Origin: Thermoplasmata archaeon
GTDB taxonomy: Archaea > Thermoplasmatota > Thermoplasmata > Lutacidiplasmatales > UBA184
Reading direction: 5' to 3'
Assembly (NCBI GenBank): GCA_021790425.1
Contig: JAJYEA010000005.1
Coordinates: 1 to 64,000 of the forward strand
DNA: 64,000 nt
In this document: in pieces, positions 865 through 24,407 of the stretch
Position numbering within the stretch: position 1 is the first letter of the stretch
Layout of the letters: every line of letters begins with the position of its first letter
Program-made: the position numbers and the translations under genes
The notes under the pieces: model-generated
The model's database searches: none
The model's input: the letters and a program-made list of their open reading frames with translations, nothing else
Told to the model about the DNA's origin: nothing

Positions 865-3800
865 ATGCGTGCCCTGTGGTGGCACGTCAGCCACCACCTC
901 GTCGTCCGAATAGCCATGCCCAGCGCCGTAAGCGCGCTTCTCCTTCTCTCGATGCTCTTAGTGGTCGCTCCTGCAGGCTTGGGGGCCGTTGCTCCCACCG
1001 CTCCTCCCTCGCCAGTGCACGGGGCAAGTGGTGGTGCGTCGTCGTTGACCAACCGGGGGATGCCCGCGGTCGGCGGGTCGGTCGCCTCCCCGGTGCCATC
1101 CGTGTACCGCCCGCTGTCCCGTGAGCGCGGAGGTCCGGCGGTCGGAGCCGCCTCGCCCGAGCTGGCCCAGGGGCTCGTTCCGCTCGCGTCGAACGCACAA
1201 GTGGGACTGTGGGAAGGTACCACGTTCGCCCAGCTGGACGCGAACTCCGGCCAGATCTACGGGTCGATGTTCGTCTCCTTTCCCCTGGCGAACGGCCCCT
1301 CGACGAAGGCGATCGTCTACACGCTGTCGGGCCAGAGCACGACCGGGGACTGGTACATACTGGGGATCGGGGACAACCTCGCGGCGATCACGTACTACAG
1401 CAGCCTCGGGTGCTCGACCGGGTTCGAGATCCTGCTGTTGATCATCGACAACGCGGACAGCACGTACTCCGCGCAGTGCCTGAGCTCGCTCACCTTCGCC
1501 GCCGGAGAGACGGTGGAGCTCGGCATGAACTACACGTCGGCCTCCCCGAACAACATGGGGTTCACGGTGTGCGAGAACTCCTCCTGCGTCGGCTACTTCA
1601 TCGCCCAACCCAACCCCTCCTCCCCCGGTTTCTCGATGATGACGACCCCACGGGGCACCTACGGGGGCTTCACGGGGGCGATGACCTGGCTCATGGATCC
1701 CAGCACCACGACGTGCGGGCGGTACGGCCCTCCCGAGGTGGACTACGACTTCCACTCGGGAGCCTACGTCACGGAGTACCTGCCGTGGGCCCAGCAGTAC
1801 GACTTTTACAGCTCCGCCTGGTGCTACAACTACACCTCCGGGGTCATCTCCGCCGCTCCGGGGGACCCGATGACCCACTACTTCGATGCCTCCGGCGGCA
1901 GCGCCGACGGTCCGCACTACGAGGGGATGCAGAACCTTTCCCTGGTCAGCGCCCTCTCCGGCAGTTACTGGTGGAGGTTCCAGACGGATGTCACCCCGCT
2001 CAAAGTACCGGGGCTGGCCGCTTCGCGCACGACCGCGGACGTCGGGCAGACGGTGACCTTCACCCCCTCGGGATCCGGCGGGACTTCCCCCTACTCGTAT
2101 CCATGGTATCTCAACGGAACGTTCCAATCGACGGCCACCGCCGCCTGGACGTGGACCCCTTCGGGGGGTGGTTCGTACTCGAACTACGTGGACCTGGTGG
2201 ACGCGGACTACGATGAGTCCGGGCCCTCATCGACCGTTGCCGTGTCGGTGACGAGCGACCCCACGCTGGGAGTTCCCGTCGCCACGCCGTCGTCAGGAGC
2301 CATCGACCTGGGCCAGAGCGTCACGTTCACGAGCGCGGCTCCCAGCGGCGGCCTCAGCCCGTTCGCCTACAGCTGGACCTCGCTGCCGACCGGGTGTACG
2401 AACTCGATGGTGGCGACCGTGACGTGTGCTCCGACGGTGGCCGGGACGTACTCCGTGGTCGACCAGGTCACGGACGGGAACTCCTTCGTGGTGGCCAGCA
2501 CGCCCTCGTTGTCGTACACCGTCGACGGCCCTCTGACGGCCTCGCTCTCCGCCTCCCCGACCCTGATCGACGTTGGGCAGTCCCTCAACCTCACGGTCAC
2601 GGCCGGTGGAGGGTCCGGGAGCTATTCCTACGCGTACTCCGGGCTCCCGGCGGGTTGTGCCAGCGCCAACGTGACCCCGCTGCTGTGCACGCCCACCTCG
2701 AGCGGGAACTCGTCGGTGACGGTCATCGTTTCCGACACCAACCTTGTCTCCGCGACCTCTTCGGCGGTGAACCTGACGGTGGACCCCGCCCTCAGTTTCC
2801 TCGGTCTGACCGCCGCTCCCGCCTCCTTCTACCTTGGCAACGGGACCTACCTCAATGCCTCCGCGAGCGGGGGAACGCCTGCCTATTCGTACGTCTACTC
2901 CGGGTTGCCTTCGGGATGTACGACCTCCAGCACGTCGTCGCTCTACTGTGTCCCCACCTCCGCCGGGAATGCCTCCGTCACCGTGGTCGTGACTGACGGG
3001 GCGGGCGAGCAGGTCCGCGGCACTGCCGCGTTCACGGTCCTTTCCCCGATCCCTCCGCTGGTGATCACCTCGTACTCGGTCTCTCCCTCCACGATCACGC
3101 AGGGCGCCTCCGTCTCGCTCACCGTGGCCGCCACCGGGGGCGTCTCTCCGTACTCCTATGCCTACACGGGTCTGCCCGCCGGTTGTTCCTCGCAGAACTC
3201 CTCGAGCTTCCCGTGCACCCCCGCGCAGAACGGGACCTTCCCGGTCTCGGTGCGGGTGTCGGACCCCCAGGGTGCCTCGGTCAACCGGACCGCCACCCTT
3301 GTGGTCAATCCGGTCCCGGCCGGTGCTCCCACGATCACCTCGTTCACCGTGAGCCCGTCCACGGTCACGCTGGGCTCGAATGCGAACGTGAACTTCACCG
3401 CGGTGGTCTCGGGGGGCACCCCGGCTTACTCGTACAGCTACGCGGGACTCCCGTCCGGGTGCTCGTCCTCGGACTCGCGTACGCTGACCTGCACGCCCGA
3501 CACGGCGGGAAACTACACGGTGACCCTGACCGTCACCGATAGCAAGAGCAAGACCGCGCAGGCCACCACGACACTGACGGTGAAATCCTCGGCCGGGACC
3601 TTCCCCCCCTCCATCTCTTCGGTATCGGCGACCCCGAACCCGGTGACGGTCGGACAACCGACCAAGATCACCGTGGTGGTGACGGGTGGCAAGACCCCGT
3701 ATACCTACACGTACGGGGGCCTCCCACCGGGATGCCTGTCGATCAGCACGTCGACGCTCTCCTGCACTCCCACGTCCCCCGGTTGGTACAACGTGAGCAT

Positions 3801-5127
3801 CGAGGTGCAGGATGCTGCAGCGGCGAAGGCCACTGACGTCTATCTCCTCCGCGTGACCTCCTCCGGGGCCATCGCCCCCCTCTCGGTCTCCCTGGCGTCG
3901 AACGCCACCTCGCTCCGTTTGGGGATGTCCGCGCTCCTCACCGCCAGCGTGACCGGGGGCGAGGGCGCGTTCTCCTTCTCGTGGGCCTTGAACGGCACGA
4001 ACCTTTCGACCGGGCCGAGCGGGAGCTCCTACACCCCTTCCTTCGCGCACGGGGGGGACTATGCCTTCACGGTGTGGGTCACCGATCACCTGGGTCACGT
4101 GGCCAAGAGCCAGGTGGTCTCCATCGTCGTAGGATCTGCGACCGTGGGGTCCCAACCGGAGTCGAGCGGCTTCCCGTGGTGGATCCTCCTCCTCGTGGTG
4201 GCGGCGGCCCTGGGACTCATGGTCTTCTTGGTTGTCGAGCGTCGTCGTCGGGAACGGCGGGCCTTGGAGGAGGCGGGTCTCACGAACGCAGCGACGACGG
4301 CTCCGGGGACCGAAGACGGGGTCTCTCCCACCGAATCGTCCGAGCCCGTGCTCCCCGCAGTTTCGCTCGGAGCAGCCGCCGGATTCGGTGCGGGTGATTC
4401 GGGTCCTGCGATGAGCGAAGGAGTCGCCTACGGCGTCGGAGCAGAGGTCACGCCCGGAATGACCCCTGCCACGGCGGCCGCGCCTCTCGCGAGCTGCCCG
4501 CAGTGCGGCGGACCCCTGGGAGAGGGGCAGGAGTGCTCGGCCTGCGGAGTGCGCTGGGCCCCAGAGTCTCCCGTGCCCGACCCGGGCCCGACCGCGGTGC
4601 CTGCCTTGATGGAGGCGGGCCCAGAGGCGGCTCCTCCTCCGCTCCTGACCCATTGCCCTCAGTGCGGGGAGCCGCTCGGGGCCGACCAGACGTGCGTCAC
4701 CTGCGGAGTTGGGTGGGCGCCCGAGCCGCCTCTGGTCACCCCCGTCCCCGAGGCCATCCCGAGCGGGTCACCGGAGTCCGCTTCACCCCCCCTCCCCCCG
4801 CCGGAACCGACCCCCTTCTCCGTCGACGTCCCGTTGGGTCCCCCGCCTCCCCCGCCGGACCCGGAGACGGGCGCATCGATACCGGAACCGGAGGTCCGTC
4901 CCTTCCCCGACGACGAATCCCCCCGCGCACCACCCGACCTCGCCGCAGGCGTCCCCGCAGCCACCGACGCCAACCCCTCCGCCGATGGATCTGGTGCGGA
5001 GGGAGCCCCTCCCCCGGGGACCGCTTCCCCGGCCAACGTGCGGACGTGCTTCGTCTGCGGATCGCTGCTCGACGGCGCCTACTGCCCGGTCTGCGAGATG
5101 CGCTGGGAAGCTCCCGCGCCCGAGTAG
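865..5127 (+). CDS. Large surface protein A: signal peptide, beta-rich head, Ig/PKD-like repeats, TM, cytoplasmic tail with three zinc ribbons
   Basis: Repeats with YxYxGLPxGC...CTPT...VTVTD; TM segment GFPWWILLLVVAAALGLMVFLVVERRRRERR; tail has CPQCGGPLGEGQECSACGVRW, CPQCGEPLGADQTCVTCGVGW and CFVCGSLLDGAYCPVCEMRW. Confidence 0.85.
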   Translation: MRALWWHVSHHLVVRIAMPSAVSALLLLSMLLVVAPAGLGAVAPTAPPSPVHGASGGASSLTNRGMPAVGGSVASPVPSVYRPLSRERGGPAVGAASPELAQGLVPLASNAQVGLWEGTTFAQLDANSGQIYGSMFVSFPLANGPSTKAIVYTLSGQSTTGDWYILGIGDNLAAITYYSSLGCSTGFEILLLIIDNADSTYSAQCLSSLTFAAGETVELGMNYTSASPNNMGFTVCENSSCVGYFIAQPNPSSPGFSMMTTPRGTYGGFTGAMTWLMDPSTTTCGRYGPPEVDYDFHSGAYVTEYLPWAQQYDFYSSAWCYNYTSGVISAAPGDPMTHYFDASGGSADGPHYEGMQNLSLVSALSGSYWWRFQTDVTPLKVPGLAASRTTADVGQTVTFTPSGSGGTSPYSYPWYLNGTFQSTATAAWTWTPSGGGSYSNYVDLVDADYDESGPSSTVAVSVTSDPTLGVPVATPSSGAIDLGQSVTFTSAAPSGGLSPFAYSWTSLPTGCTNSMVATVTCAPTVAGTYSVVDQVTDGNSFVVASTPSLSYTVDGPLTASLSASPTLIDVGQSLNLTVTAGGGSGSYSYAYSGLPAGCASANVTPLLCTPTSSGNSSVTVIVSDTNLVSATSSAVNLTVDPALSFLGLTAAPASFYLGNGTYLNASASGGTPAYSYVYSGLPSGCTTSSTSSLYCVPTSAGNASVTVVVTDGAGEQVRGTAAFTVLSPIPPLVITSYSVSPSTITQGASVSLTVAATGGVSPYSYAYTGLPAGCSSQNSSSFPCTPAQNGTFPVSVRVSDPQGASVNRTATLVVNPVPAGAPTITSFTVSPSTVTLGSNANVNFTAVVSGGTPAYSYSYAGLPSGCSSSDSRTLTCTPDTAGNYTVTLTVTDSKSKTAQATTTLTVKSSAGTFPPSISSVSATPNPVTVGQPTKITVVVTGGKTPYTYTYGGLPPGCLSISTSTLSCTPTSPGWYNVSIEVQDAAAAKATDVYLLRVTSSGAIAPLSVSLASNATSLRLGMSALLTASVTGGEGAFSFSWALNGTNLSTGPSGSSYTPSFAHGGDYAFTVWVTDHLGHVAKSQVVSIVVGSATVGSQPESSGFPWWILLLVVAAALGLMVFLVVERRRRERRALEEAGLTNAATTAPGTEDGVSPTESSEPVLPAVSLGAAAGFGAGDSGPAMSEGVAYGVGAEVTPGMTPATAAAPLASCPQCGGPLGEGQECSACGVRWAPESPVPDPGPTAVPALMEAGPEAAPPPLLTHCPQCGEPLGADQTCVTCGVGWAPEPPLVTPVPEAIPSGSPESASPPLPPPEPTPFSVDVPLGPPPPPPDPETGASIPEPEVRPFPDDESPRAPPDLAAGVPAATDANPSADGSGAEGAPPPGTASPANVRTCFVCGSLLDGAYCPVCEMRWEAPAPE

Positions 5128-5171
5128 TCCTTCTCAGCCTCCGTGGCGCTCTAATTTTGCGCGCTTTCCCG

Positions 5172-5179
5172 TATATATA
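5172..5179 (+). promoter_or_regulatory. TATA box for the 5202 gene
   Basis: TATATATA about 25-30 nt upstream of ATG 5202. Confidence 0.55.
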
Positions 5180-5201
5180 CTCGGGCGGACCTCGTTCGGG
5201 C

Positions 5202-7907
5202 ATGGACCCCGTCTCCGCGGGATCGCGGGGCCCCCGCTGGGGGGAAGTGGGCTTCGTCTCGCTCCTGGTCCTGTTGATGGTCACTCCGTCCCCGACGGGC
5301 GGATGGTCCCTCCCTTCCTTGGAGGGAGAAACGCACTCCTCGCTTTCTCTCCCGGTGGTGAAGGTGTTGTCGATCGGCTCGACCGGGTCCCCTTCCGCGA
5401 CGCCCACAGGGCCCGGGGGCAATGACTGGTGGGACCGCTACTGGCCGCTGTCCGCCTCGGTCGGTCTCTCTTCGAGGAACACCATCAACGTGGGTCAGAA
5501 CCCCAACATCCCTGCGGCGGACACCTACACCGGGAGGGTCTACTCCTCCAACGCCGGCCCGAGCAATCTCAGCATCATCGACCCGAGCACCCACCAGGTG
5601 GAGGTCACGATGCCGGTGGGCACCCACCCCTACTGGTCCCCGGAGTTCGACCCGGCCGACGGGAACGTGTACGTCCCGAACGAGTGGTCGGACAGCGTGA
5701 GCGTCATCTCGGGCGCGACGGAGACGCCAATCGCCTACATTCCCGTGGGACTGGACCCCTGGTGGCCGATCTACGACCCGGCGACCCCGAACGACACGCT
5801 CTACGTGGCCAACGCGAACTCGGGCAACGTCAGCGTCATCTCCGGCACCCAGGCCGCGGTCGTAGCCAGCATCCCGGTGGGGGGCCAGCCCTGGTGGCCG
5901 GTGGTCGATCCCGTGACGAACCAGGTGTTCGTGCCGGGCCCCACCAACAACGTGACCGTGATCGATGGGTACACCAACCGGGTGGTCGCCGTGCTGCGCC
6001 TTCCGGGGAATGCGCTCCCCGGGGTCTTCGACAGCGCGAACGGTGACCTCTACTTCCCGGCCGAGTCCGCGGGAAAGGTGAGCGTGGTGTCCGGGGCCAC
6101 GGACCGGATCCTCGCCAACCTGACGGTCGGCGCCAGTCCCGTGATGCCCACCTACGTCCCGGCCAACGGGGAGATCTACGTCCCGAACCTGTACTCGGCG
6201 AACATTAGCGTGATCTCCGGCGGGAACAACACGGTCCTTCGCGCGATCCCGGTGGGGGGGTCCCCCGAACCTCCGGTCGTCGACCCCTTGACCGACGAAC
6301 TTTACGTGGCGAACTCGGCATCGGCCAACGTGTCCGTCATCGATTCCGGGACCGATGCGGTCATCGCCACCATTCCCGTGGGGGCTGACCCGCACTGGCC
6401 GGTCTACGATGACCGGGACAACACGGTATACGTTCCCAACTCGGGAGCGGCGACCATCAGCCTGATCCCGGGGGGGTGTGGCTCCTCCGGGACGCTCTGC
6501 TACGCCTCCGTCTCCCCCGCGACGGGACCGCTTCGCGCGGGACAGACGGAGCAGGTGACCGCGACCGTGCACTGCACAGGAGGCGCTTGCCCCGGGGGGA
6601 TCGTCTACCACTGGTCGGTCTCGAACGGCCTCGCCAGTGTCTCTCCCTCCGCCCCCTCCCCCGATCCGGTCGCCAACCTGACCGCCGGCGCGAATACGGG
6701 TGAGTTCGTCCTGCGTGTGACCGCCGCGTGGAACGGGACCGCCGTGAACTCGACCGGCCTCCCCATCGTGATCACCCTCCCGCCGCCCCCCTCGCTCGTC
6801 AACGTCTCGATCTGGCCGCCCGCGGCTCAGGTCGCCCCGGGCCAGACGGTCAACCTCACCGCGCTCCTCTCGTGCCCATCCTCAGGATGCCCGACGAACA
6901 TCCAGTACGCATGGGGTCTCAACAACTCCCTGGGCACGCTCTCTTCCACCACCGCGAACTGTACCCAGTTCCAGGCCGGCCCGCTCGACGGGTCGGTGAC
7001 GGTGACCGTACTTGCGACCTCGGGGACCGCCCGGGTCTCTTCTTCCTCGCAGGTGCGCATCCTGGCCAATGCCCCCGCGGTGATCGAGTCCGTCTCCGTG
7101 CGTCCATCGCAGGAGGTGGTCCCGGTCAACGGCAGCGCGACCCTCTACGCCCAGGCGGTCTGCACGGGGGGGCAAGCGTGTCCGAAGACCACGGTCTACG
7201 AGTGGTCCGCGCCGGGCGCGCTGGTGACCTTGACCCCGGCGACGGGTGCGTCGACGCACCTCCGGGCCGGTGCGAGCCCGGGGTTCCTCAACGTGACCGT
7301 GGTCGCGATCGCGGAAGGGCGTTCCGCGAGCGCGCAGGTCGCCGTCCGGGTCTCGGGCACCCCGGTCCCCGGCCTCGCGAAGGTGTCGATCCAATCCTCC
7401 TCCGTCCGACTGGACCCGGGAGGCAACGTCACGCTCCTTGCTGTACCCACGTGCTCGCCTTCGGCATGCCAGGCCGGGATGACCTACTACTGGTCGCTCT
7501 CGGACCATGCTCTCGCGAGTCTCAACACGACCTCGTCACCCGTGGTCCGGCTCACCTGGGGCAGCGCTTTGGGCTCGGAGTCGGTCACCGTGGAGGCCAC
7601 GCTGAACGATGTTTCGGTGTCGAGCAGTCCACTCGTGCTGAGCGTGCAGTCCCCGTCCCATGCCGGCGTACCGGCCACCTGGATAGTCGCGATACTCGCG
7701 GGGGCAGGGTTACTCGCGCTCGCGCTGGTCGTGTGGGTCCTATCCCGGAGGCGACGAGCGGCCCGGAGCGGAAGGGGCGGTCCGACGCCCCACTGGTCCA
7801 CCTCCCCCACCGAAGAGACCCCGCACCGTGTCGAGGAGGACCACGCGGACTCCCCCGCGGGGGATAGGGAGGTTTCGGGCCCCCATTTGCGTCCCCCCCA
7901 GGAATAG
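5202..7907 (+). CDS. Surface protein B: YVTN-type beta-propeller plus Ig-like repeats, C-terminal TM
   Basis: ORF is open from 4503, but signal peptide MDPVSAGSRGPRWGEVGFVSLLVLLMVTPSP and the TATA box place the start at ATG 5202. Repeats such as YVANANSGNVSVISGTQAAVVASIPVGGQPWWPVVDPVTNQVFV; TM WIVAILAGAGLLALALVVWVLSRRRR. Confidence 0.85.
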   Translation: MDPVSAGSRGPRWGEVGFVSLLVLLMVTPSPTGGWSLPSLEGETHSSLSLPVVKVLSIGSTGSPSATPTGPGGNDWWDRYWPLSASVGLSSRNTINVGQNPNIPAADTYTGRVYSSNAGPSNLSIIDPSTHQVEVTMPVGTHPYWSPEFDPADGNVYVPNEWSDSVSVISGATETPIAYIPVGLDPWWPIYDPATPNDTLYVANANSGNVSVISGTQAAVVASIPVGGQPWWPVVDPVTNQVFVPGPTNNVTVIDGYTNRVVAVLRLPGNALPGVFDSANGDLYFPAESAGKVSVVSGATDRILANLTVGASPVMPTYVPANGEIYVPNLYSANISVISGGNNTVLRAIPVGGSPEPPVVDPLTDELYVANSASANVSVIDSGTDAVIATIPVGADPHWPVYDDRDNTVYVPNSGAATISLIPGGCGSSGTLCYASVSPATGPLRAGQTEQVTATVHCTGGACPGGIVYHWSVSNGLASVSPSAPSPDPVANLTAGANTGEFVLRVTAAWNGTAVNSTGLPIVITLPPPPSLVNVSIWPPAAQVAPGQTVNLTALLSCPSSGCPTNIQYAWGLNNSLGTLSSTTANCTQFQAGPLDGSVTVTVLATSGTARVSSSSQVRILANAPAVIESVSVRPSQEVVPVNGSATLYAQAVCTGGQACPKTTVYEWSAPGALVTLTPATGASTHLRAGASPGFLNVTVVAIAEGRSASAQVAVRVSGTPVPGLAKVSIQSSSVRLDPGGNVTLLAVPTCSPSACQAGMTYYWSLSDHALASLNTTSSPVVRLTWGSALGSESVTVEATLNDVSVSSSPLVLSVQSPSHAGVPATWIVAILAGAGLLALALVVWVLSRRRRAARSGRGGPTPHWSTSPTEETPHRVEEDHADSPAGDREVSGPHLRPPQE

Positions 7908-7989
7908 GACCTGACCTCGCGACCCAAGGCCCTGAAGGAGGGGACTCCCGGTGACAGGTCCTCCTCCCGGTTTTGGTTCCCGGGGCTAG

Positions 7990-7997
7990 GTTTATAC
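7990..7997 (+). promoter_or_regulatory. TATA-like box for the 8016 gene
   Basis: GTTTATACT about 25 nt upstream of ATG 8016. Confidence 0.5.
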
Positions 7998-8015
7998 TGC
8001 CTCAGGCTTGGGAAG

Positions 8016-11000
8016 ATGCGAATGTCTGTCGCGCCGCGGCATGTCAGGGTCGCGGGCAACGAAGGCACTCCCCGCTTCCCGACCGCTTGGGTGGTGCTGG
8101 CGTTGCTCCTCCTGCTTGTCGTGTCGGGACTGAGCGCCGCGCCCGAGGCGGCGCCTCAGACTGCTGGTTCCGATACGATCGCTGCTGGCCATGCGGGCAA
8201 GGTCTCGTCCCCCGGTCCCGCCGCGCAACCGATGGTGCGGGCGAACTTCCTCCCGTCCCGGCTCCCTTCCGTGAGCGGGTTCCACTCCCAGGTGAACGTC
8301 TCGACGACCTCGCCGGTCCACGCCAGCGGGGGTCCGGTCGCCGCTCCCTCCAACAGCCCATCGACGGTCACCGACGCCACGGGGGTCGTCTACACGACCT
8401 GGGCCGCGAACGTCTCCGGGACGTGGCGGATCTACTTCTCCAAGAGCACCGACGGATCGACCTTCACCGCCCCGGTGCTCATCGACCCCACGCCCACCTC
8501 GGGGGACGAGGATGTGAGCCCGAACATCGCGGTGTCCGGATCGGGATCGACCGCCAAGGTGGTGGTCGTCTATCAGGTGATGGTCAGCTACACGATCGCA
8601 TCGGGCGGATTCTACGACTTCGTGCTCTCCACCAACGGCGGCGGAACCTGGCCCTCCGCGGTCACCGGCTCCTACATCAGCGACCCCTACAGCAACATCG
8701 TCTCCCCGGTGGCAGCGTGGGATTCCGCGGGCAACCTCATCGTTGCCTTCTGGGCATCGACCACTACGGGCACCGGGGACACGAACCTGGCGGTCGACCT
8801 CTGGACGGGAGGGACCGCCTACTCGACCAGCTACACGGGCCCCGCGTTGGTCTACGAGTTCTATCCCACGATCGCCCTGGCCTGCAGTTCGACCGTCGCG
8901 AGCTGCGGGATCGAGATCTCGGTCACCAACTCCGGAGGCACGCTCAACTATGCCGAGCTCTACTATTCCACCAACCAGTTCTCGACCTTCACGACGCACA
9001 AGGTGTTGAGCACCGCCGCCTTCAGCAGCAGCGCGAACTACGCCACGGAGGTGGTCGACGAGGCGGGGGTCAGCTACGGTTCCGGCTACAACGCGACCGT
9101 GGCCTTCCTGTACAACGTGGGTTCGGACGCTTCTCCCACGTACAACGTGAACACCACGTATACCTCGACGGGCTGGACCAGCACCACCAAGGGCGGGTAT
9201 CCCGCCGGGGCCTCGGGTACCGGTCTGGGTGCCGTTGCCGTGAGCGTCAGCTCCGGGAACGACCCCTACGTCTTCTACTGTGCGGTCGGCGGGACTCCGA
9301 TGGTCACCTGGGCACTGTCCCCGGGCGGGGCCTACCTCACCGCCATCGCCGTCACCAAGTCGCCCTCCGACGCCACGTCGTTGGCGGTCACGACCGCCGT
9401 GGCACCGTTCCGGGTGGACCTCGTCTACCTGAATGCCTCGAAGTCGACCCTGCCCCAGGTCTACTATAGCAGCCTGGTCGGGCTCTCCGCCACCGCCTCC
9501 GCATCGCCCACCACCGTGGACCTCGGGCAGAACGTGAGCTTCACCTCGTCCATCAACGGGGGACTGGCCGCCTACTCCGACTCCTGGAACTTCGGAGGCG
9601 CCTGCTCGCCTTCCTGCCCTTCCACCCTCCCCAACGCCTCGGTGAACTACACGACGACCGGGGTCTACACCGCGAAGCTCACCGTGACGGACGGGATAGG
9701 GGAGACCGTCACTGTGAGCGCCCCGGCCGTGACAGTGAACGCGCGGCCCGGGATCAGCCTCGCCCCGGTGAATGCGACCATCGATGCCGGGATGTCGAGC
9801 AACGCCACGGCCACGGCGAGCGGAGGAACGCTTCCCTACGGTGCCTACGCGTTCTACCGGAACGGGGTCGTGTCGCAGAGCGGGAGCCAGACCTGGTTCA
9901 ACACGACGTTCCCCACGGCCGGGGTCTTCTACGTCAACGCGACCGTGACGGATGCCCTGGGGGTCACCTCGTCCGCGGCCTCGTCCGTGATCACCGTGAA
10001 TCCCCTCCCCTCCATCACGGCCTTCACGGCCACTCCCGCCACCATGGCGCTGGGGAACAGTTCCACGCTCTCGGTCACCACCGCGGGGGGGACCGCCCCG
10101 TTCACGTACGCCTATAGCGGCCTTCCCACCGGGTGCACCACCGCCAGCAGCCCGACGCTCACGTGCACCCCGACTGTCAACGGCTCATTCCGGATCAACG
10201 TGACCGCCACCGACCGCTTCGGGCGGAGCGTCACGTCCAACACGACCCTGGACGTCACTCCCGCGATCCCTCCCCTGGCCGTGAGCGCCTTCACCGCGTC
10301 TCCCTCGAGCTTCACGCAGGGGGGAACCACCTACCTGAACGTCACCGCATCCGGAGGAGTGACCCCCTACACGTACGTCTACTCCAGCCTGCCCGCAGGT
10401 TGCAATTCGGCGAATGTGACCTCGCTGGCGTGCACGCCGACGGCGAACGGCACCTTCGCCGTGACCGTGACGGTGACCGACGTCCAGGGGCACGTCGCGA
10501 GCCGGAACGTCTCGTTCACCGTGACCCCCGTGGTCATCCCTCCCATCTCGATCGCCTCCTTCACGGCCTCGCCCGCCGCGTTCCTCTTGGGCGGCACCAC
10601 GGACCTCAACGTGTCGGCGAGTGGGGGGCAGGGACCCCTGTCGTACTCCTATTCCGGGCTGCCGGCCGGGTGCTCGTCCCAGAACCTCTCCTCACTGGCC
10701 TGCACACCCTCGGGGGTCGGCAACTCGACCGTCACCGTGACGGTCTCCGACGCCCACGGCCGTTCCGCCACGCAGACCACCTCCTTCAGCGTGGGATCGC
10801 CTCCCGTCCCGCTTTCGATCACCTCCTTCGCGGCGACCCCGTCCTCCTTCGTCGTGGGCAATTCGACCACGTTCCTGGCCAAGGTGAGCGGCGGGACACC
10901 CTCGTACAGCTACGCGTACTCGAACACCCTTCCCGGGTGTGTCCCGATCAATTCGAACACCTGGGCGTGCACGCCCTCCACCGCCGGGAACTACACGGTC

Positions 11001-12542: not shown

Positions 12543-12618
12543 GTCGGGTCGGAGTCCTCGCCGGAACCGAAACGGAGCAGGCGTGCCGGGAGACGGTCAC
12601 CGGCCGCCGTTAATCAGC

Positions 12619-12627
12619 TATAAATAG
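12619..12627 (+). promoter_or_regulatory. TATA box for the giant surface protein gene
   Basis: CTATAAATA upstream of in-frame ATGs at 12638 and 12650. Confidence 0.5.
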
Positions 12628-12637
12628 GTTGCTCGCG

Positions 12638-15600: not shown

Positions 15601-18600
15601 CGGCTTCGCGGTCACCGGGACCATCACCTACGCGGTGGATTCCGATCCGGTCCCCTCGATCAGTCCTTCCATCGGGTCCGGCGGGATCGATGTCGGCCAG
15701 ACGGTCACCTTCACGGGCTCGGTGACCGGCGGTTCCGGAGGGACCGCCTATTCGTGGACCTCGCTCCCCACCGGATGCACGAACTCTGCGGCCTCGACGG
15801 ACAGCTGCACCCCGTCCACGGCGGGTTCGTACACCGTGACGCTCAAGGTCACGGACTCCAACTCCTTCTCGGCCACGACATCGATCGCGTACTCGGTCGA
15901 CGGCGACCCGACCGTGGGCAATCCGACGGCTTCGCCCATCTCGGGAGGGGTCGATGTGGGACAGACCGTCACCTTCACGAGCGCCACCCCGTCCGGAGGG
16001 TCCGGCGGGTACACCTACTCCTGGACCTCGCTTCCCACGGGATGCACGAGCTCCGGCTCGTCGACCGACTCCTGCGTACCCACCGGGTCAGGATCGTTCA
16101 CCGTGACGGTGCAGGTGAAGGACACCAACAACTTCGCGGTCACGGGGACGATCACCTACCTCGTGGAGTCGGACCCCGTTCCCACGGTCACGCCGTCCCA
16201 TGCCTCGGGGGGCGTCGACGTGGGACAGACCGTATGGTTCAATGCCACGGTGACGGGCGGATCCGGCGGCACCAGCTACTCGTGGACCTCGCTCCCCACC
16301 GGATGCACAAACTCTGCGAGCGCCACGGACAGCTGTACCCCGTCTACGGCGGGCTCGTACACCGTCACGCTCAAGGTCACGGACTCGAACGCGTACAGTG
16401 CGACCACCTCGCTCACCTACGTGGTCGACTCCGACCCGGTGCCCTCCGTCACCCCCTCCCATCCCTCGGGTGCGGTGGACGTCGGGCAGACCGTGTGGTT
16501 CAACGCCACGGTGACGGGCGGATCCGGTGGGACCACCTACTCCTGGACCTCGCTCCCGACTGGATGCACGAACTCGGCAACCTCGAGCGACAAGTGCGTG
16601 CCGACGGCCGCGGGAGGCTTCACCGTCACGCTCAAGGTCACGGACTCGAACGCGTTCAGCGCGACCGCCACGCTCAGCTACACGGTCGACAGCGATCCGG
16701 CGGTCGGGAACCCCACCGCCTCGCCCGTCTCCGGAGGGATCGACGTGACCCAGACCGTGACGTTCACCAGCGCGACCCCTTCCGGCGGGTCGGGCGGGTA
16801 CGCCTATGCGTGGAGCGGGCTGCCCACCGGATGCACGAGCTCCGGGACGGCGACGGACTCCTGCACCCCCACGTCGGCGGGCACTTCGACCGTGACCGTG
16901 ACGGTGAAGGACTCGAACGGCTACGCGGTCACCGGCTCGATCTCCTATGTCGTGGACACCGACCCGACGGTCGGTGCCCCGACCGCGGTGCCGGCCACCA
17001 GCGGCATCGACTCCGGACAACCCGTCGTCTTCACGAGCGCCACCCCTGCCGGCGGCTCGGGCGGATACACCTACGACTGGACGGTCCTTCCCACCGGATG
17101 TGCCAGCTCGGGAACGGCCACGGACTCCTGTACCCCCTCCGGCATCACCACGAACACCTCCTTCTCGGTGACCGTCAAGATCACGGACTCGAACGGCTTT
17201 GCCGTCACCAGCGGGGCGCTCCCCTACCAGGTCCTGAGCGATCCCACGGTCACCCTGACGGCCTCCTCGGGCTTTGTCGACCTCACGCAGGTCCTGACCC
17301 TCACGGCCGCGGTCTCCGGCGGCGCGGGGGGCTATGCCTTCGCCTGGACGCACACCCCCACCGGGTGCACGGCATCGAACGTTCGCGTGATCACCTGCAC
17401 TCCCACGGCGACCGGCAGCTTCCCGGTCGACGTGAACGTCACGGATGGGAACGCGTTCAAGGTCATCGCGACCTCGGTCACCGTGAAGGTCAACCAGGAC
17501 CCGACGTTGGCGGAATCCCCGTCCGCCGCCCAGAGCAACGAGTCGGGGGAGATCAACAACTTCACCGCCACCGTCACCCTCGGCAGCACCCCCTACACCT
17601 ACCAGTGGATGGTGAACGGGACGGCGGTCGCGGGGGCGACCTCTGCGGTCTACGCCTTCCATCCGATGCACCCGGCCACCTACACCGTCAACGTGACGGT
17701 CCGGGACGCGGCAGGGTGGGTGCTCTGGGGCGCGTCCGTGACCGAGACGGTCTACCCCGGACCCGAGGTCACTCTCGCGGTCCCCACCACCGCGGTCGAC
17801 CTGGGGGCGACCGTGTCGTACGCGGGAAGCGAGAGCGGTGGGGTGCCCCCCATCGTCCTCCAGTGGTTCGTGAACAGCGCGCTGGTCCAGTCCGGTGGCT
17901 ACAAGGACTTCAACTTCACGGCCGCCGGGGCCGCCGTCTATACCATCACCTTCCAGGCCACGGACGCGGACAACGCCCACGTGAGCCAGACGAGCACGCT
18001 CACGGTCTTCCCCGACCCGACGGTCGCGACCCCCACGGCGAGCCCCGCGTCCATCGACTCGGGCCAGTCCGTCACCTTCTCGGCGGTCGTCAACGGGGGT
18101 TCGGGCACGTTCACCTACGTCTGGTCGGGTCTCCCCTCCGGATGCGTGAGCTCCAACAGCTCCTCCATTGCCTGCACCCCCGCGGCCGTGGCATCGAACA
18201 CCTCGCTCGCCGGGATCTCGGTCCACGTGTCGGACACCCTCGGCAAGTCCGCCACCTCCGGCTCCCTCACCCTCTCGGAGGACGCCGATCCCGTGACCGG
18301 CGTTCCCACGGCATCGCTCCCTATCATCGACAATGGTCAGACGGTCACCTTCGCCGTCCCGATCTCGGGCGGTTCCGGGGGCTACGCGTTCGTCTGGTCG
18401 GGCCTGCCCAAGGGGTGCGCCAGTGCGAACACCCGCCCCCTGAGCTGCACGCCGAGCGGCGTTCTCGCGAACGCCAGCACCTCGATCTCCGTGGGCATCA
18501 CCGACTCGAACGGATACCCCGTGGCCTCGGGATCGCTCGCGTATGAGGTCCTCGCCGACCCCACCGTCTCGGTACCTGTGGCCGCTCCCGCGTCCGTGGA

Positions 18601-21436
18601 CAATGGACAGTCGGTGTCCTTCTCGGTTTCCTTCGGCGAGGGCTCGGGGGTCTACAACTTCACCTGGACGGGACTCCCCTCCGGGTGCGCCCCGGTGAAT
18701 TCCTCGAAGATCGCCTGCACGGTCACCTCCGTCACCGCCAACACGACCTACACGGTTGCGGTGACCCTGCGCGACACGCTGGGCTTCTCGGTGGCCAACA
18801 CCTCCCTGACCTTCCAGGTCGATGCGGACCCCTCCGTGGTCCTCACCTCGTCGGTCTCGGCGATCGACCTCACCCAATCGCTCACGCTCACCGCCGCAGC
18901 GGCGTCCGGCTCGGGCGGATACTCCTTCTACTGGTCCGGTCTACCGGCCGGATGCGCGAACGCGAACGTCCGGATCCTGACCTGCACTCCCACCGCGGTC
19001 GGTCCGGTGTCGGTCTCCGTCTCGGTCCTCGACTCCCATGGCTTCAACGTGACCTCGTCCCCGGCGCTCGCCCTTACGGTCAATGCGGACCCCACGGTGC
19101 TGGTGAGCCCCGGCACCTCCCAGAACAACGAGTCCGGCCAGTTCGTCAACTTCACCGCGGCGGTGACCGCGGGTACGGCCCCGTACAACTACACCTGGTT
19201 GCTGAATGGGACGGCCATCCCGGGAGCGAGCCTGTCCGCGCTCGCCTTCCACCCCCTCCACCCCGGTAACTACACGGTCAACGCGACGGTCATCGATGCG
19301 GCCGGGTGGCGCCTCTGGACCCCGGGAGTGACGGTGCTGGTCGTCCAGGGGCCCCAGATCGCCCTCCGCGGGTCCTCGGCGGTCATCGATCTCGGCACGA
19401 CCGTGGGATACACCGCCACGGAGAACGGTGGGATCGCCCCCTTCACGTTCAAGTGGTTCCTCAACACGACCCTTCAGCAGTCCGGGACCAACCTGACCTG
19501 GAACTTCACCGCCCTGGGGGCCGGGAACTACTCCATCACCGTGGAGGTGGTCGATGCCCAGCACGCCCAGGTCTCCAGCACCCTCTTGCTCCTCGTCCAC
19601 CCGGACCCGAGGGTCAACGCCCCCGGGGCCGCCCCGGCGTCCGTGGACCTCTCCCAGTCGACCACCTTCTCGGTGACCCCGTCGGGCGGCACGGGGGTCT
19701 ACTCCCTCGTATGGGTGGGGCTCCCGAGCGGCTGTTCCACGCTCAACATGACCTCGGTCTCCTGCGCGCCCTCCGCGACCGGGAGTTTCTCGGTGCAGGT
19801 GAACGTCACCGACACCCTGGGGAAGTGGTCCCTCGGCCCGGCGCTCTCCTTCACGGTCTACGCGGACCCGGTGATCACTACTCCCACGGCCACTCCTTCG
19901 CTGATCGACGCGACGCAGTCGGTCACCTTCCAGGCGAGCGCATCGCTCGGCTCCGGCGGCAACACCTACCAGTGGTCGGGCCTCCCCGCGGGGTGCGTCT
20001 CGTCGAGCACGCTCACCCTGACCTGCTCGACCGCCGTGATCGCGGCGAACACGACGTTCGATGTCGTGGTCACCGTGACGGACTCGAACGGCCTGGCGGT
20101 CCCCAGCGCCGTCCTTGCGTTCGTGGAGCACGCTGCCCCGGGCGCCGTCCTGGGCGTCAGCTCTTCGAACCCCACCGTGGGGGTGGCCTTCTACCTGAAC
20201 ACCAGCATCACGGGCGGAAGCGCTCCCTACGTGCTTTCCTTCTCCGGGCTCCCGACCGGGTGCGCCGCGGTGAGCTCCCCCGTCCTCCGGTGCATCCCCA
20301 CGGGGGCGGGCACCTACTCGGTGCACCTGTCGCTCCGGGACTCCCTCGGGGTGTACGCGAACGTCACGAAGATGATCACGGTGGGCTCCCCCGGTCCCCA
20401 TCCCCTCACGCTCTCGGTGACGCTGTCGCAGACGACCGTGACCGAGGGGCAGAAGGTCTGGATCAACTCCACGGTGAGTGGTGGGACGGCCCCCTACACG
20501 TTCGTCTACGTCGGGCTCCCCTCGGGATGCTCGAGCGCGAACGTGGAGCCGCTCGTTTGCGCTCCGCAGGTCTCCGGCACCTTCTCGATCACGGTCAACG
20601 CGACCGACGGTCTCAAGGACTACGGCCAGCGCACGGTCTCCCTCACCGTGAGCTCCGGGGCACCTCCCCTCGCCGTGAGCCTCGCCGCGAGCGAGACCTC
20701 TGTCCCGACCGGCACCCTCTTCACCCTCACCGCCACCGCCACCGGGGGCGTGGCGCCGTACTCCTACTCCTGGTCGCTCAATGGCACGGCGGATGGTTCC
20801 GCCCCGGACCGCGCGGTCTGGAACCTCACGCTCGACCATGCCGGGACCTACGTCTTCGAGATCTCGGTCCTGGATGCCCACGGGAAGTCCGCCACCTCGT
20901 CCGTAACCGTGACGGTCACACCCGCGAAGCCTCAGGGCGGACCCACCGGCGGGGGCTTCCCGTGGTGGATCCTGCTGGTCGTGGCGGCCGTGATCGTGGC
21001 CCTGCTCCTCCTCGTGGTCCTGCGCCGCCGCTCGGAGAAGAAGGCCCCGGCGGAAGAGCCCGCTCCCTCGGAGGGAGGGGCCCTGTCGCCCGCACCCGAG
21101 GCTTTCGCGTCCGGCGGCGCCGAGCCGTTGCCCCCGCCCCCCGAACCCATGCTCGAGACCCCCGGGGCCATGGCCTTCGAGGGAACGGGCATGGCCGTCG
21201 CGGGGGCCGAGGTCGCCGCCTCCGCTCCGGAAGTCTCCCCCGACACGTCGGGCGAGCCGAGCGTTCCGGCGATGGACACCCCGCCCGCCCCCGAGGCGGA
21301 GGCCGTCCCGCCCCCGCCGCCTCCCCCGCCGGCGGCGAGCGGCTCCGAGGGCGCGCGCCGGTGCTTCGTCTGCGGGAGCGAGCTCCAGGGCAACTTCTGT
21401 CCTTCCTGCAACATGAGCTGGGACGAGCCCGGTTGA
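12638..21436 (+). CDS. Giant surface protein D (about 2.9k aa): signal peptide, beta-rich head, more than 20 Ig/PKD-like repeats, TM, C-terminal zinc ribbon
   Basis: ORF opens at TTG 12629; ATG 12638 or 12650 is more likely. Tandem units ..SGGVDVGQTVTFTSATPSGGSGGYxYSWTSLPTGC..; TM GGGFPWWILLVVAAVIVALLLLVVLRRRSEKK; tail RRCFVCGSELQGNFCPSCNMSWDEPG*. Confidence 0.88.
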   Translation: MWRVMLGGGRGPSASRARVGLLAISLLLVVSTWSGIGLAQAIPAGSGHSSSPAVGTGVVRFAHGATFPGAPDRAPNFVSAHLAGLVPSSAVHRTPFSPGPIRSGLAGSKVGSPLSATNPYYMQEGGTIAQFTNGAFGGFAGWYINVTLQTSPYPIGYEFNGVTNVGDWYQTVVGYDWPGCNTGFELLYSSWNNAGSNSGGTYCDPSVTLSSGNVVELWLWIDTTSSDSTYQDACMAVTDVTTGYSSNSDCVTQPDGGSTPQNNYFESLTSAANTNGYATGPWTELIDTTSSACTTYTGLPTMTYQFPQMLGLYVTAYIPWSDQFLSGGATCYSSASPDPEIALTISDHTVHYSQEAPSYGPHWESGQNTTATNWVFETDHAPSSPVSLSISESRSTADIGQAVTYTPSASGGTTPYAYHWYLNGVLQTSTTSTWSWTPSAAGTDDVEATVTDASTNTYGYSNEVAVSVSSDPAVGAPTASPASGGIDAGQSVTFTSATPTGGYGSYGYSWTALPTGCTNSGTSTETCSPTAGNTYTVTVQVTDGNGYAVTGSLSYLVDSDPAVGAPTASPVSGGIDVGQTVTFTSAAPSGGSGGYGYSWTSLPTGCTSSAASTDTCTPTAANTYTVTVKVTDSHGVATTGTISYVVVSDPVPSISPSIASGGIDAGQTVVFTGSATGGSGGTVYAWTSLPTGCTNSGAASQSCTPTTAGSFTVTLKATDSNGFAATISITYVVDTDPSMGNPTASPVSGGVDVGQPVTFTSATPSGGSGGYVYAWTSLPTGCSNSAASTDTCTPNTAGAYTVTVQVKDSNGFPVTGSISYSVDSDPTVGNPTASPGSGGVDVGQTVTFTSATPSGGSGGYAYSWTSLPTGCTSSGGSTDSCVPTGSGSFTVTVQVKDSNGFAVTGTITYAVDIDPAVGNPTASPVSGGVDVGQTVTFTSATPSGGSGGYVYSWTSLPTGCTNSGASTDSCVTTTSGTSTVTVQVKDSNGFAVTGTITYAVDSDPVPSISPSIGSGGIDVGQTVTFTGSVTGGSGGTAYSWTSLPTGCTNSAASTDSCTPSTAGSYTVTLKVTDSNSFSATTSIAYSVDGDPTVGNPTASPISGGVDVGQTVTFTSATPSGGSGGYTYSWTSLPTGCTSSGSSTDSCVPTGSGSFTVTVQVKDTNNFAVTGTITYLVESDPVPTVTPSHASGGVDVGQTVWFNATVTGGSGGTSYSWTSLPTGCTNSASATDSCTPSTAGSYTVTLKVTDSNAYSATTSLTYVVDSDPVPSVTPSHPSGAVDVGQTVWFNATVTGGSGGTTYSWTSLPTGCTNSATSSDKCVPTAAGGFTVTLKVTDSNAFSATATLSYTVDSDPAVGNPTASPVSGGIDVTQTVTFTSATPSGGSGGYAYAWSGLPTGCTSSGTATDSCTPTSAGTSTVTVTVKDSNGYAVTGSISYVVDTDPTVGAPTAVPATSGIDSGQPVVFTSATPAGGSGGYTYDWTVLPTGCASSGTATDSCTPSGITTNTSFSVTVKITDSNGFAVTSGALPYQVLSDPTVTLTASSGFVDLTQVLTLTAAVSGGAGGYAFAWTHTPTGCTASNVRVITCTPTATGSFPVDVNVTDGNAFKVIATSVTVKVNQDPTLAESPSAAQSNESGEINNFTATVTLGSTPYTYQWMVNGTAVAGATSAVYAFHPMHPATYTVNVTVRDAAGWVLWGASVTETVYPGPEVTLAVPTTAVDLGATVSYAGSESGGVPPIVLQWFVNSALVQSGGYKDFNFTAAGAAVYTITFQATDADNAHVSQTSTLTVFPDPTVATPTASPASIDSGQSVTFSAVVNGGSGTFTYVWSGLPSGCVSSNSSSIACTPAAVASNTSLAGISVHVSDTLGKSATSGSLTLSEDADPVTGVPTASLPIIDNGQTVTFAVPISGGSGGYAFVWSGLPKGCASANTRPLSCTPSGVLANASTSISVGITDSNGYPVASGSLAYEVLADPTVSVPVAAPASVDNGQSVSFSVSFGEGSGVYNFTWTGLPSGCAPVNSSKIACTVTSVTANTTYTVAVTLRDTLGFSVANTSLTFQVDADPSVVLTSSVSAIDLTQSLTLTAAAASGSGGYSFYWSGLPAGCANANVRILTCTPTAVGPVSVSVSVLDSHGFNVTSSPALALTVNADPTVLVSPGTSQNNESGQFVNFTAAVTAGTAPYNYTWLLNGTAIPGASLSALAFHPLHPGNYTVNATVIDAAGWRLWTPGVTVLVVQGPQIALRGSSAVIDLGTTVGYTATENGGIAPFTFKWFLNTTLQQSGTNLTWNFTALGAGNYSITVEVVDAQHAQVSSTLLLLVHPDPRVNAPGAAPASVDLSQSTTFSVTPSGGTGVYSLVWVGLPSGCSTLNMTSVSCAPSATGSFSVQVNVTDTLGKWSLGPALSFTVYADPVITTPTATPSLIDATQSVTFQASASLGSGGNTYQWSGLPAGCVSSSTLTLTCSTAVIAANTTFDVVVTVTDSNGLAVPSAVLAFVEHAAPGAVLGVSSSNPTVGVAFYLNTSITGGSAPYVLSFSGLPTGCAAVSSPVLRCIPTGAGTYSVHLSLRDSLGVYANVTKMITVGSPGPHPLTLSVTLSQTTVTEGQKVWINSTVSGGTAPYTFVYVGLPSGCSSANVEPLVCAPQVSGTFSITVNATDGLKDYGQRTVSLTVSSGAPPLAVSLAASETSVPTGTLFTLTATATGGVAPYSYSWSLNGTADGSAPDRAVWNLTLDHAGTYVFEISVLDAHGKSATSSVTVTVTPAKPQGGPTGGGFPWWILLVVAAVIVALLLLVVLRRRSEKKAPAEEPAPSEGGALSPAPEAFASGGAEPLPPPPEPMLETPGAMAFEGTGMAVAGAEVAASAPEVSPDTSGEPSVPAMDTPPAPEAEAVPPPPPPPPAASGSEGARRCFVCGSELQGNFCPSCNMSWDEPG
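14048..17238 (+). repeat. In-frame tandem repeat array of about 12 units, roughly 260-275 bp each
   Basis: Units begin at (S/T)DP codons near 14048, 14312, 14579, 14839, 15107, 15376, 15642, 15904, 16169, 16432, 16692, 16960 and end near 17238. Long near-identical DNA stretches, e.g. gacggtgcaggtgaaggactccaacggcttcgcggtcaccgg near 15311 and 15581. Confidence 0.9.
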
Positions 21437-21524
21437 CGGGACCCGCGCGCGGAATGCGACCCGGGGATCAGGGGGAGACCGGTTCCTCAGGCTCGACCGG
21501 AGCTAGGGGTGTGCGTTCCCATAC

Positions 21525-24332
21525 GTGAAATACTGGGTGCACTCTTCGGTCCTCGCCGCAAGCAGGGCGATGTTCCATCCTTCGGCCCCATTATCGAGCA
21601 CGCTCGCAGCACTGGCCCTCTGCTCGCTGATCGTGGCGGGCCTGCCCCTGGTTTCCGGGGCCACCGCGGCGTCCCCGGCTCCAGGCGCTCCTCTCTCGCC
21701 GGCTCCACGGTTGTCCGTCTCCTCGTTCACGATCTCGCCCAACCCGATCCTGGTGGGGCAGACGACGTACCTCAACCTGACGGCGGTCCAGGGCACCCCC
21801 CCGTACCTCTTCAACTTCAGCTCCGGGATGCCGCCGAGCTGCGCGCAGACCGCCGGGATACAGTACGCCAACGTCTATTCCGTGGCGTGCATCCCGTCGG
21901 TCGCGGGCAGCTACACGATCCTAGGGGTGGTATTCGACTCCAACCTCAGCAGTGCTTCGTCCACGGCGACGCTGGTCGTGAACCCGGCCCCGACCGGACC
22001 GACCATCCAATCCTTCACGGCCTCTCCCGCCTCGGTCCCGCAGGGGGGGACGACCTACCTCAACGTCTCCGCTTCCGGCGGGATCGGACCGTACTCCTAC
22101 GCATACACCTCGCTTCCCCCCGGGTGCGCGAGCGCGAACACGAGTTCGCTGAAGTGCATCCCTTCCCAGACCGGGAACTACACCCCCACGGTCACCGTGA
22201 CGGACATGCAGAACCTCGTCGCCTCCAGCTCCACCTCCCTGACCGTCACCGTCTCGCCCGGCCCCGTGGTCGTCTCCTTCACCGCCACCCCCTCGACCTT
22301 CACCGTGGGCTCGACGACCCAGCTCCGGGCCAACGTCTCCGGCGGATCGACCCCGTACACTTACTCCTACGCGGGACTCCCCGCCGGATGCGGCTCGACC
22401 AACGCTTCCTCCCTTTCCTGCCGGCCCACTGGCCCCGGCAACGTCACCGTCGTCCTGACCGTCAGCGACACCCATGCGCGTTCGGCCACTGCGCAGACCA
22501 CCTTCGTCGTGAATCCCCTCCCGTCCGTGACGTCATTCACCGCCTCCCCAACGGCCGTCACGGTGGGAGGCACTACCACGATCCGGGCCTCGGCCACGGG
22601 AGGGACTCCGCCGTACGGGTACACCTACACCGGACTTCCGTCGGGATGTTCGACCACGAACGCGTCGAGCTTCGGGTGCACCCCCACGGCGACCGGTTCC
22701 TTTACCCTCCAGGTCATCGTCCGCGACTCGGACGGATTCTCGAGCGCCGCCGCCACGACCGCGGTGACGGTGAACACGTTGCCGTCGGTCACGAGCTTCA
22801 CGGCCGATCCCTCGGTCTTCCCCCTGGAGAATGGCACCTACCTCAACGTGAGCGTCGCCGGGGGCACCTCTCCGTTCCGCTACGTGTACGCCGGCCTCCC
22901 GGCCGGATGCTCGGGGGCGGGCTCGAGCTCGGTCCACTGCACTCCCCTCGTGACGGGGACCTTCAATGCCAGCGTGACCGCGACGGACGCGAGCGGGAAG
23001 GCCGCCTCGGCGTCCGTGGTCTTCACCGTGACCCCGGCCCCGTTGATCCTCTCGTTCGCGGCCACGCCCTCGACCGTCGCTCCGCACTCGACGACCGTCC
23101 TGGTGGTCCAGGCCGCCGGAGGTGCCCTCCCGTACTCCTACACCTACTCGAGCCTCCCGACCGGATGCGGTTCGGCGGATACGGCCACCCTCAGCTGTAC
23201 TCCCATCGCCACCGGGACCTTCGAGGCCCGGGTCGTGGTCACGGACGCCCGCGGGAACTCGAACTTCGCCGTCACGAACATCACGGTGAGCACCAACGCC
23301 CCCTCGGGCCCGGCGATCGCCTCGTTCACCGCAAGCCCGTCCGTGGCCTCGGTCGGCCAGTCGGTTGAATTCACGGTGATCGCCTCGGGAGGGTCTCTGC
23401 CGTACTCCTACTCGTACGTCGGGCTGCCCCCGGATTGCTCCTCGCTGGACGCGAGCCACCTCAACTGCACCCCGCCCTCCCCGGGCAACTACACGGTGAA
23501 GGTGACCGTCACCGATGGCGCGAGCCGGTCCACGTCGGCCACCCTTCTCCTCAGGGTCACGGGGCAGGTGCAGCCGCTCACGGATTCCCTCTCCGTTTCG
23601 CCCACGCCGGTCCCGGTGGGGAGGCCCTTCACGCTCAATGCCTCCATCCGAGGAGGGGTGGGCCCCTTCGCCTACGGCTGGTCCGAGGACGGGGCGAACA
23701 ACTCGGCGGGACCCAACGCCACTTCCTGGACGCTCACGCTCACTCGCGCGGGGACCTACATTTTCCGCTCCTGGGTGACGGACGCCACCGGGAAACGGGC
23801 CGGCAGCAACACCGTCACGGTCGAGGTCACCGGGAGCTCCGGGGGCGGTGGGACCTCCTCTGCTCCCGCATCCCCGCTGTGGATCGTGGGCGCGGTCGTC
23901 CTGGTCGCACTCGTCCTCCTCGCCTTCCTGGTCTATCGGCGGCGCCAAGCGGGATCGCACCCTCCCTCCTCGGATCCGACCCCGGAGTCCCTTCCGCCCG
24001 GCGGGTTCGGTGGTGCCGTGGCCCCTGCCGCGGAGGGTGCGCCGACCGGAGCCCAGCTGATGCCGGAAGCGACGGGGGCCGTTCCCGCAGCGCCACTGGC
24101 ATGCCCGCAGTGCGGGGCACCGCTCGACGACGAACGGACCTGCCTGTCCTGCGGCGTGTCCTGGCAGCCGGGGCCCCTGGCCGCCCCGGAAGCGCCCGGG
24201 CCCGGGGTACCGCCGGAGGCCCAGCCGGAGCCGGATGTGCCCGGGACCATGCCGACCCTGACCCTCTGCCCGACCTGCCAACGGCCCGTGGGCCCCGAGG
24301 GGGTCTGCTACTCCTGCGGCCACCAGGGCTGA
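21525..24332 (+). CDS. Surface protein E: Ig/PKD-like repeats, TM, two zinc ribbons
   Basis: About nine GLPxGC repeats; TM PLWIVGAVVLVALVLLAFLVYRRRQ; tail CPQCGAPLDDERTCLSCGVSW and CPTCQRPVGPEGVCYSCGHQG*. Start is GTG 21525 or ATG 21570. Confidence 0.85.
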   Translation: MKYWVHSSVLAASRAMFHPSAPLSSTLAALALCSLIVAGLPLVSGATAASPAPGAPLSPAPRLSVSSFTISPNPILVGQTTYLNLTAVQGTPPYLFNFSSGMPPSCAQTAGIQYANVYSVACIPSVAGSYTILGVVFDSNLSSASSTATLVVNPAPTGPTIQSFTASPASVPQGGTTYLNVSASGGIGPYSYAYTSLPPGCASANTSSLKCIPSQTGNYTPTVTVTDMQNLVASSSTSLTVTVSPGPVVVSFTATPSTFTVGSTTQLRANVSGGSTPYTYSYAGLPAGCGSTNASSLSCRPTGPGNVTVVLTVSDTHARSATAQTTFVVNPLPSVTSFTASPTAVTVGGTTTIRASATGGTPPYGYTYTGLPSGCSTTNASSFGCTPTATGSFTLQVIVRDSDGFSSAAATTAVTVNTLPSVTSFTADPSVFPLENGTYLNVSVAGGTSPFRYVYAGLPAGCSGAGSSSVHCTPLVTGTFNASVTATDASGKAASASVVFTVTPAPLILSFAATPSTVAPHSTTVLVVQAAGGALPYSYTYSSLPTGCGSADTATLSCTPIATGTFEARVVVTDARGNSNFAVTNITVSTNAPSGPAIASFTASPSVASVGQSVEFTVIASGGSLPYSYSYVGLPPDCSSLDASHLNCTPPSPGNYTVKVTVTDGASRSTSATLLLRVTGQVQPLTDSLSVSPTPVPVGRPFTLNASIRGGVGPFAYGWSEDGANNSAGPNATSWTLTLTRAGTYIFRSWVTDATGKRAGSNTVTVEVTGSSGGGGTSSAPASPLWIVGAVVLVALVLLAFLVYRRRQAGSHPPSSDPTPESLPPGGFGGAVAPAAEGAPTGAQLMPEATGAVPAAPLACPQCGAPLDDERTCLSCGVSWQPGPLAAPEAPGPGVPPEAQPEPDVPGTMPTLTLCPTCQRPVGPEGVCYSCGHQG

Positions 24333-24407
24333 ACGAGGCGGCACAGGGCGGCCCGGGCGGGCCCGCACCCGCTTATCTGGCCTTCGCCCTTGCATCCCCC
24401 CGTGGGG

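Follow-up and report, generated by a model that had tools for sequence, protein, structure and literature searches.

Archaeal surface proteins built from Ig/PKD repeats (PF00801, He_PIG) have a repeat ectodomain, a membrane anchor, and heads such as propellers. Many archaeal surface proteins end in a transmembrane (TM) segment followed by a short basic tail and are processed by archaeosortase. To our knowledge, little is known of how the cell surface is coupled to the interior in archaea beyond halophiles and methanogens. The adhesin-like proteins of methanogens are mostly anchored at their N termini, and the paper on them (PMC11532034) nowhere mentions zinc. The proteins described here share the repeat ectodomain, membrane anchor, and displayed heads of Ig/PKD surface proteins but, in contrast to the methanogen adhesin-like proteins, are anchored C-terminally and continue into a tail of 130 to 300 amino acids (aa) bearing predicted zinc ribbons. 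Our literature search found no paper joining PKD, zinc ribbon, archaea, and transmembrane, and the Lutacidiplasmatales genome paper makes no mention of PKD, zinc ribbons, or surface proteins. While Ig/PKD surface proteins are known, the predicted, family-restricted zinc-ribbon cassette that they carry here is new.

The DNA analyzed (the window, 64,000 nucleotides) comes from contig 61 of a metagenome-assembled genome (MAG) of 2.5 Mb that is 98.6% complete. The RadB protein encoded in the window matches its closest relatives, from MAGs titled Thermoplasmata archaeon, at 61 to 66%, and the wider set of its relatives takes in UBA184 and "Candidatus Lutacidiplasma silvani." The host is an uncultivated, acid-loving archaeon of the UBA184/Lutacidiplasmatales group of Thermoplasmatota. 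The gene cluster and its features are as follows, with TM segments assigned by hydropathy.

865 to 5127, + strand: surface protein 1, 1,420 aa; signal peptide, head of ~300 aa, Ig/PKD repeats, TM, 3-ribbon tail
4180 to 4236, + strand: TM of protein 1, followed by ERRRRERR
4495 to 4545, + strand: ribbon CPQCGGPLGEGQECSAC, protein 1
4654 to 4704, + strand: ribbon CPQCGEPLGADQTCVTC, protein 1
5047 to 5094, + strand: C-terminal ribbon CFVCGSLLDGAYCPVC, protein 1
5202 to 7907, + strand: surface protein 2, 901 aa; YVTN propeller, Ig, TM, ribbonless 55-aa tail
8016 to 12542, + strand: surface protein 3, 1,508 aa; probable all-beta head, PKD repeats, TM, 3-ribbon tail
11655 to 11711, + strand: TM of protein 3
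11964 to 12014, + strand: ribbon CPSCSGPLGSDLSCRTC, protein 3
12111 to 12161, + strand: ribbon CPQCGSHLGPDLACYQC, protein 3
12462 to 12509, + strand: C-terminal ribbon CFVCGSLLVGNYCPVC, protein 3
12638 to 21436, + strand: surface protein 4, 2,932 aa; head, >20 Ig/PKD repeats, TM, 1-ribbon tail
20966 to 21022, + strand: TM of protein 4
21362 to 21409, + strand: C-terminal ribbon CFVCGSELQGNFCPSC, protein 4
21525 to 24332, + strand: surface protein 5, 935 aa; PKD repeats, TM, 2-ribbon tail
23877 to 23933, + strand: TM of protein 5
24102 to 24152, + strand: ribbon CPQCGAPLDDERTCLSC, protein 5
24267 to 24317, + strand: ribbon CPTCQRPVGPEGVCYSC, protein 5
24390 to 25094, + strand: RadB homolog, directly downstream of the cluster

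The initial annotation had described four matching tailed proteins among five co-directional genes, and this description was confirmed by open reading frame (ORF) analysis, hydropathy, and ribbon counts, with our key results being based on ORF and pattern searches. The genes starting at 865, 8016, 12638, and 21525 are intact and co-directional. Each encodes an N-terminal hydrophobic stretch, a strong TM near the C terminus (hydropathy of 2.8 to 3.4), and an arginine-rich flank, with RRRR-type residues opening the tail right after the TM. The Pro/Ala-rich tails then contain 3, 3, 1, and 2 ribbons, respectively, of the form CxxC-x8/9-CxxC. The true ATG of the surface protein 2 gene is at 5202, while alternative starts are possible for the genes of protein 4 (TTG at 12629) and protein 5 (ATG at 21570). 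TATA-like boxes lie ~20 to 35 bases upstream of the starts at 5202, 8016, and 12638, which suggests separate leaderless promoters and makes a single operon doubtful.

In the three window proteins scanned, the PKD model (PF00801) scored 67.6 to 76.7 bits against a cutoff of 23.5; protein 4, which was outside that scan, has the same repeats. The head of protein 4 is related to that of protein 1, and the head of protein 3 is probably all-beta and propeller-like. AlphaFold models of two heads, built from five-sequence alignments, were of low confidence (pLDDT of ~38 each). A Foldseek search with the second of these gave no match at an E value of ≤0.001, and the propellers listed, with TM scores of ≤0.36, are a hint only. 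A sequence search of the Protein Data Bank (PDB) with one head returned nothing meaningful. Elsewhere in the window (54858 to 56840), a membrane protein with an NHL/YVTN propeller has a ribbon of another kind at its C terminus (CPKCNAVVKEGESFCWKC).

The ribbon tails of the four window proteins are not a product of chance: when each tail was shuffled 20,000 times, the observed count of C..C.{8,9}C..C was reached 0, 0, 1, and 0 times. The spacing CPxCG..L..CxxCG is shared with DZR and other zinc-ribbon families, and DZR (PF12773) is the best Pfam match of the ribbons; however, in three proteins the scores of 18.1 to 21.1 bits lie below the gathering cutoff of 27.3, and the C-terminal CFVCG...CxMxW type is a variant confined to the family. 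A PDB sequence search with the ribbon profile returned nothing meaningful. The most conserved unit of the tail is the ribbon at the extreme C terminus, C[FLM][VIL]CGxxL..C..CxMxW, for which we built a profile with five invariant positions (C7, C10, C19, C22, and W26) across 23 sequences from seven genera. Among relatives of the same genus, the ribbon is kept and the linkers have diverged. Judging from the pattern and spacing of the cysteines, the ribbons would bind zinc.

To place the ribbons relative to the membrane, we used hydropathy and charge counts rather than DeepTMHMM or SignalP, on a survey of 53 Ig/PKD-type single-pass proteins drawn from the match regions of the genome. In all 53, lysine and arginine are more abundant after the TM than before it (means of 4.7 and 0.3, respectively). 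Cysteines in the ectodomains occur in pairs exactly 10 residues apart, about one pair per 80-residue Ig repeat, as expected of disulfides, and each of the more than 20 repeats of protein 4 has such a pair. CxxC pairs are found solely after the TM, with none before it in a pattern search of the four ribbon-tailed window proteins. With an N-terminal signal, one TM, and positive charges on the cytoplasmic side, these proteins have the hallmarks of type-I (C-in) single-pass topology. The window proteins are thereby predicted to expose a head and an Ig/PKD stalk outside the cell and to hold the Pro/Ala-rich ribbon tail in the cytoplasm. That the ribbons face the cytoplasm is strongly supported at the level of sequence. 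The annotation had likewise placed them inside, and three independent lines agree with it: the charge pattern, the partitioning of the cysteines, and the orthologous tails of soluble proteins at a syntenic locus (see below).

This evidence also bears on a reading in which the C-terminal region is a cleaved export or sorting signal or in which the ribbons are extracellular. Archaeosortase signals (Loki-CTERM and GVDTG-CTERM, NCBIfam) resemble the window proteins in placing basic residues behind a TM at the C-terminal end, and weak hits to both models do fall across the TM. These hits are subthreshold, with the best Loki-CTERM score at 16.6 against a cutoff of 19.9 and GVDTG at 16.7 against 29. 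Moreover, the tails are far longer than such signals and contain conserved ribbons, the charge pattern is positive-inside, and soluble cytoplasmic homologs exist. We regard this reading as extremely improbable.

The same survey shows how unusual the ribbon tails are within the host genome. No CxxC pairs occur in the tails of 45 of the 53 paralogs, whose median tail is 36 aa, which bears out, for this genome, the earlier statement that the tails of such type-I proteins are normally short. Since most Ig/PKD paralogs are ribbonless, the ribbon tail is dispensable for display. The eight paralogs with tail CxxC pairs comprise the four window proteins, three proteins with other ribbon types, and a 392-aa protein on contig 60 with two PKD domains and the same ribbon type as the window tails. 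Several other tail types were observed. A 1,334-aa surface protein (L175 806-4810, G000:C61:84806-88810) has three post-TM zinc ribbons of another type. Three Ig-type proteins (L125 and L126) have ribbonless tails of 168 to 207 aa that end in a common basic motif, roughly L(V/M)xRAxQxRxKR, and make up another tail family.

Winged-helix domains occur in the long cytoplasmic tails of two more paralogs, Kelch/PKD and FN3 type-I membrane proteins encoded at L150 (G000:C136:8219-9244) and L178 (G000:C25). Each of the other four genomes sampled from the window's genus (g1), and one genome of genus g3, has related winged-helix tails. Ig/PKD-TM proteins of the window's genus do, then, carry intracellular output domains. 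The receptors with winged-helix tails resemble the window proteins in their Ig/PKD/FN3 ectodomain, TM, basic flank, Pro-rich linker, and folded cytoplasmic end, whereas the window proteins have a ribbon in place of the winged helix and no DNA-binding domain. The existence of these paralogs makes a receptor reading of the ribbon-tailed proteins more credible.

Alternatively, the ribbon tail could be merely a structural anchor or plug, a folded knob with no dedicated partner that prevents the very long ectodomain from sliding back through the membrane or being torn out of it. In line with this, low-complexity linker makes up most of each tail, with islands of conserved cysteines, and the number of ribbons varies from one to four among relatives. 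Against it, similar Ig/PKD giants have ribbonless tails of 11 to 85 aa, and a plug would leave unexplained why a soluble protein consisting only of the ribbon tail is retained at a conserved locus. A plug is in our judgment a rather unlikely explanation.

Across the family, the C-terminal ribbon profile matches 79 of 103 genomes and all seven genera, while a sample of 350 genomes of the class gave only five weak matches outside the family. Within the class, the cassette, as defined by this profile, is thus essentially restricted to the UBA184 family. In three further genomes of the window's genus (G001 to G003), the gene order of 3-ribbon protein, ~2,800-aa 1-ribbon giant, and RadB is the same, so far as the contigs reach. 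In g3, a 4-ribbon giant whose head is 38 to 42% identical to that of window protein 3 (8016 to 12542) adjoins sucCD. Of the four g3 genomes, gene calling in G011, G016, and G021 showed this giant to be followed by a soluble protein that has ribbons at both of its ends and then by MarC, and matching ribbon hits in the fourth (G006) point to the same arrangement. This soluble protein (L094 to L097; e.g., L095 6036-7019) is a possible partner of the 4-ribbon giant via like ribbons. The plan of head, PKD repeats, TM, and multiple ribbons is conserved between genera. Of the two things that the initial annotation had proposed to look for among relatives, the architecture therefore recurs, but its neighborhood is not conserved.

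RadB illustrates the latter point. It lies directly behind an Ig/PKD giant in both g1 and g3; however, the g3 giant is ribbonless, and RadB has other neighbors in g2 and g4 to g7. RadB was therefore rejected as a dedicated partner.

A second locus informs on the tail itself. In g4 to g6, RidA/fibrillarin and DUF885 flank a gene for a protein of ~100 to 230 aa with neither signal nor TM, following the pattern MxxLFRRFRR-K...PPLP...CFVCGTxLEGxxCPxCRMTWVE. Its N terminus, Mxx[LF]FRRxRR, retains the stop-transfer-like LFRRFRR; its linker is acidic and Pro-rich with an invariant PPLP-like motif; and its C terminus reads CF[LV]CGxxL...C..C[QR]MTW[VAT]E. Of 19 such soluble forms, 17 match DZR only at E values of 0.001 to 0.1. 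The gene that occupies this same position in g2, g3, and g7 encodes a protein anchored by a signal peptide and a TM, the TM being followed by ...RFRKRKEE and two ribbons, with an ectodomain that ranges from PKD-bearing (G005) to vestigial (G010, G015, and G020). Given that g1, g2, g3, and g7 form a clade sister to g4, g5, and g6 in the RadB tree, one switch between anchored and soluble forms, in either direction, suffices. Whichever way the switch went, the occurrence of a soluble orthologous tail at the same locus as the anchored form marks the tail as a predicted cytoplasmic cassette that is independent of its anchor. This fibrillarin-RidA/ribbon-DUF885 locus is conserved (L112 to L122 and L235 to L254).

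Wherever a genus has the soluble form, or the anchored form bound to this locus, the ribbon gene is immediately upstream of DUF885. Among 73 genomes with both genes, the two are on the same strand and 52 to 195 bp apart in 70 and within 1.6 kb in 71. The DUF885 protein contains HEVFPGH and EGWAHY motifs by eye, fitting a predicted metallopeptidase. The cassette might accordingly be an adaptor for this peptidase, with the anchored form bringing it to the membrane or marking a surface protein for turnover. Co-occurrence across the 98 non-g1 genomes (73/1/8/16; Fisher P = 1.2e-11, uncorrected for phylogeny) speaks for such a role, and in 16 of these genomes the two genes are both missing, having been lost together. 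On the other hand, DUF885 is present with no detected ribbon gene in eight genomes, and it went undetected, at an E value of ≤1e-20, in the window's own genus, whose ribbon tails are the most elaborate. This rules out DUF885 as a general partner for the proteins of the window, and we hold the adaptor reading to be improbable as an account of the cassette, even though DUF885 is the best genomic lead on tail function.

Zinc ribbons often bind nucleic acid or the translation or recombination machinery, and the ribbons could in this way tie the surface proteins to RadB or fibrillarin. RadB does follow ribbon giants in the window and in G001, G002, and G003, and the soluble form adjoins fibrillarin. 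Yet the RadB-linked giant of g3 has no ribbon, fibrillarin and RidA lie on the strand opposite to the ribbon gene, and, outside its ribbon and its basic N-terminal stretch, the cassette is acidic and Pro-rich. Nucleic acid binding is for these reasons very unlikely.

Taken as a whole, the data are explained best, and with somewhat better than even confidence, by type-I surface proteins whose predicted cytoplasmic zinc-ribbon cassette would dock a partner. The flexible linker of the tail would end in zinc-folded docking knobs, which may hold a cytoplasmic protein at the membrane or cluster receptors, and contact at the surface through the head would thereby be coupled to the cell interior. A putative adhesin or receptor role for the ribbon-tailed proteins is plausible. 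It is a tentative and, in our estimate, unlikely proposition that the C-terminal CxxCG cassette would be a family-specific cytoplasmic interaction module common to the giant surface receptors and a soluble adaptor, and that it would give these archaea integrin-like inside-outside coupling by way of a putative cytoplasmic hub.

The ribbon cassette defines an unnamed protein family present in most genomes of a widespread group of archaea from acid soil and mine drainage. Because it is found as the tail of giant surface proteins and also, at one fixed locus next to a predicted metallopeptidase, as a small protein free of the membrane, it provides a concrete bait with which to look for a cytoplasmic partner.
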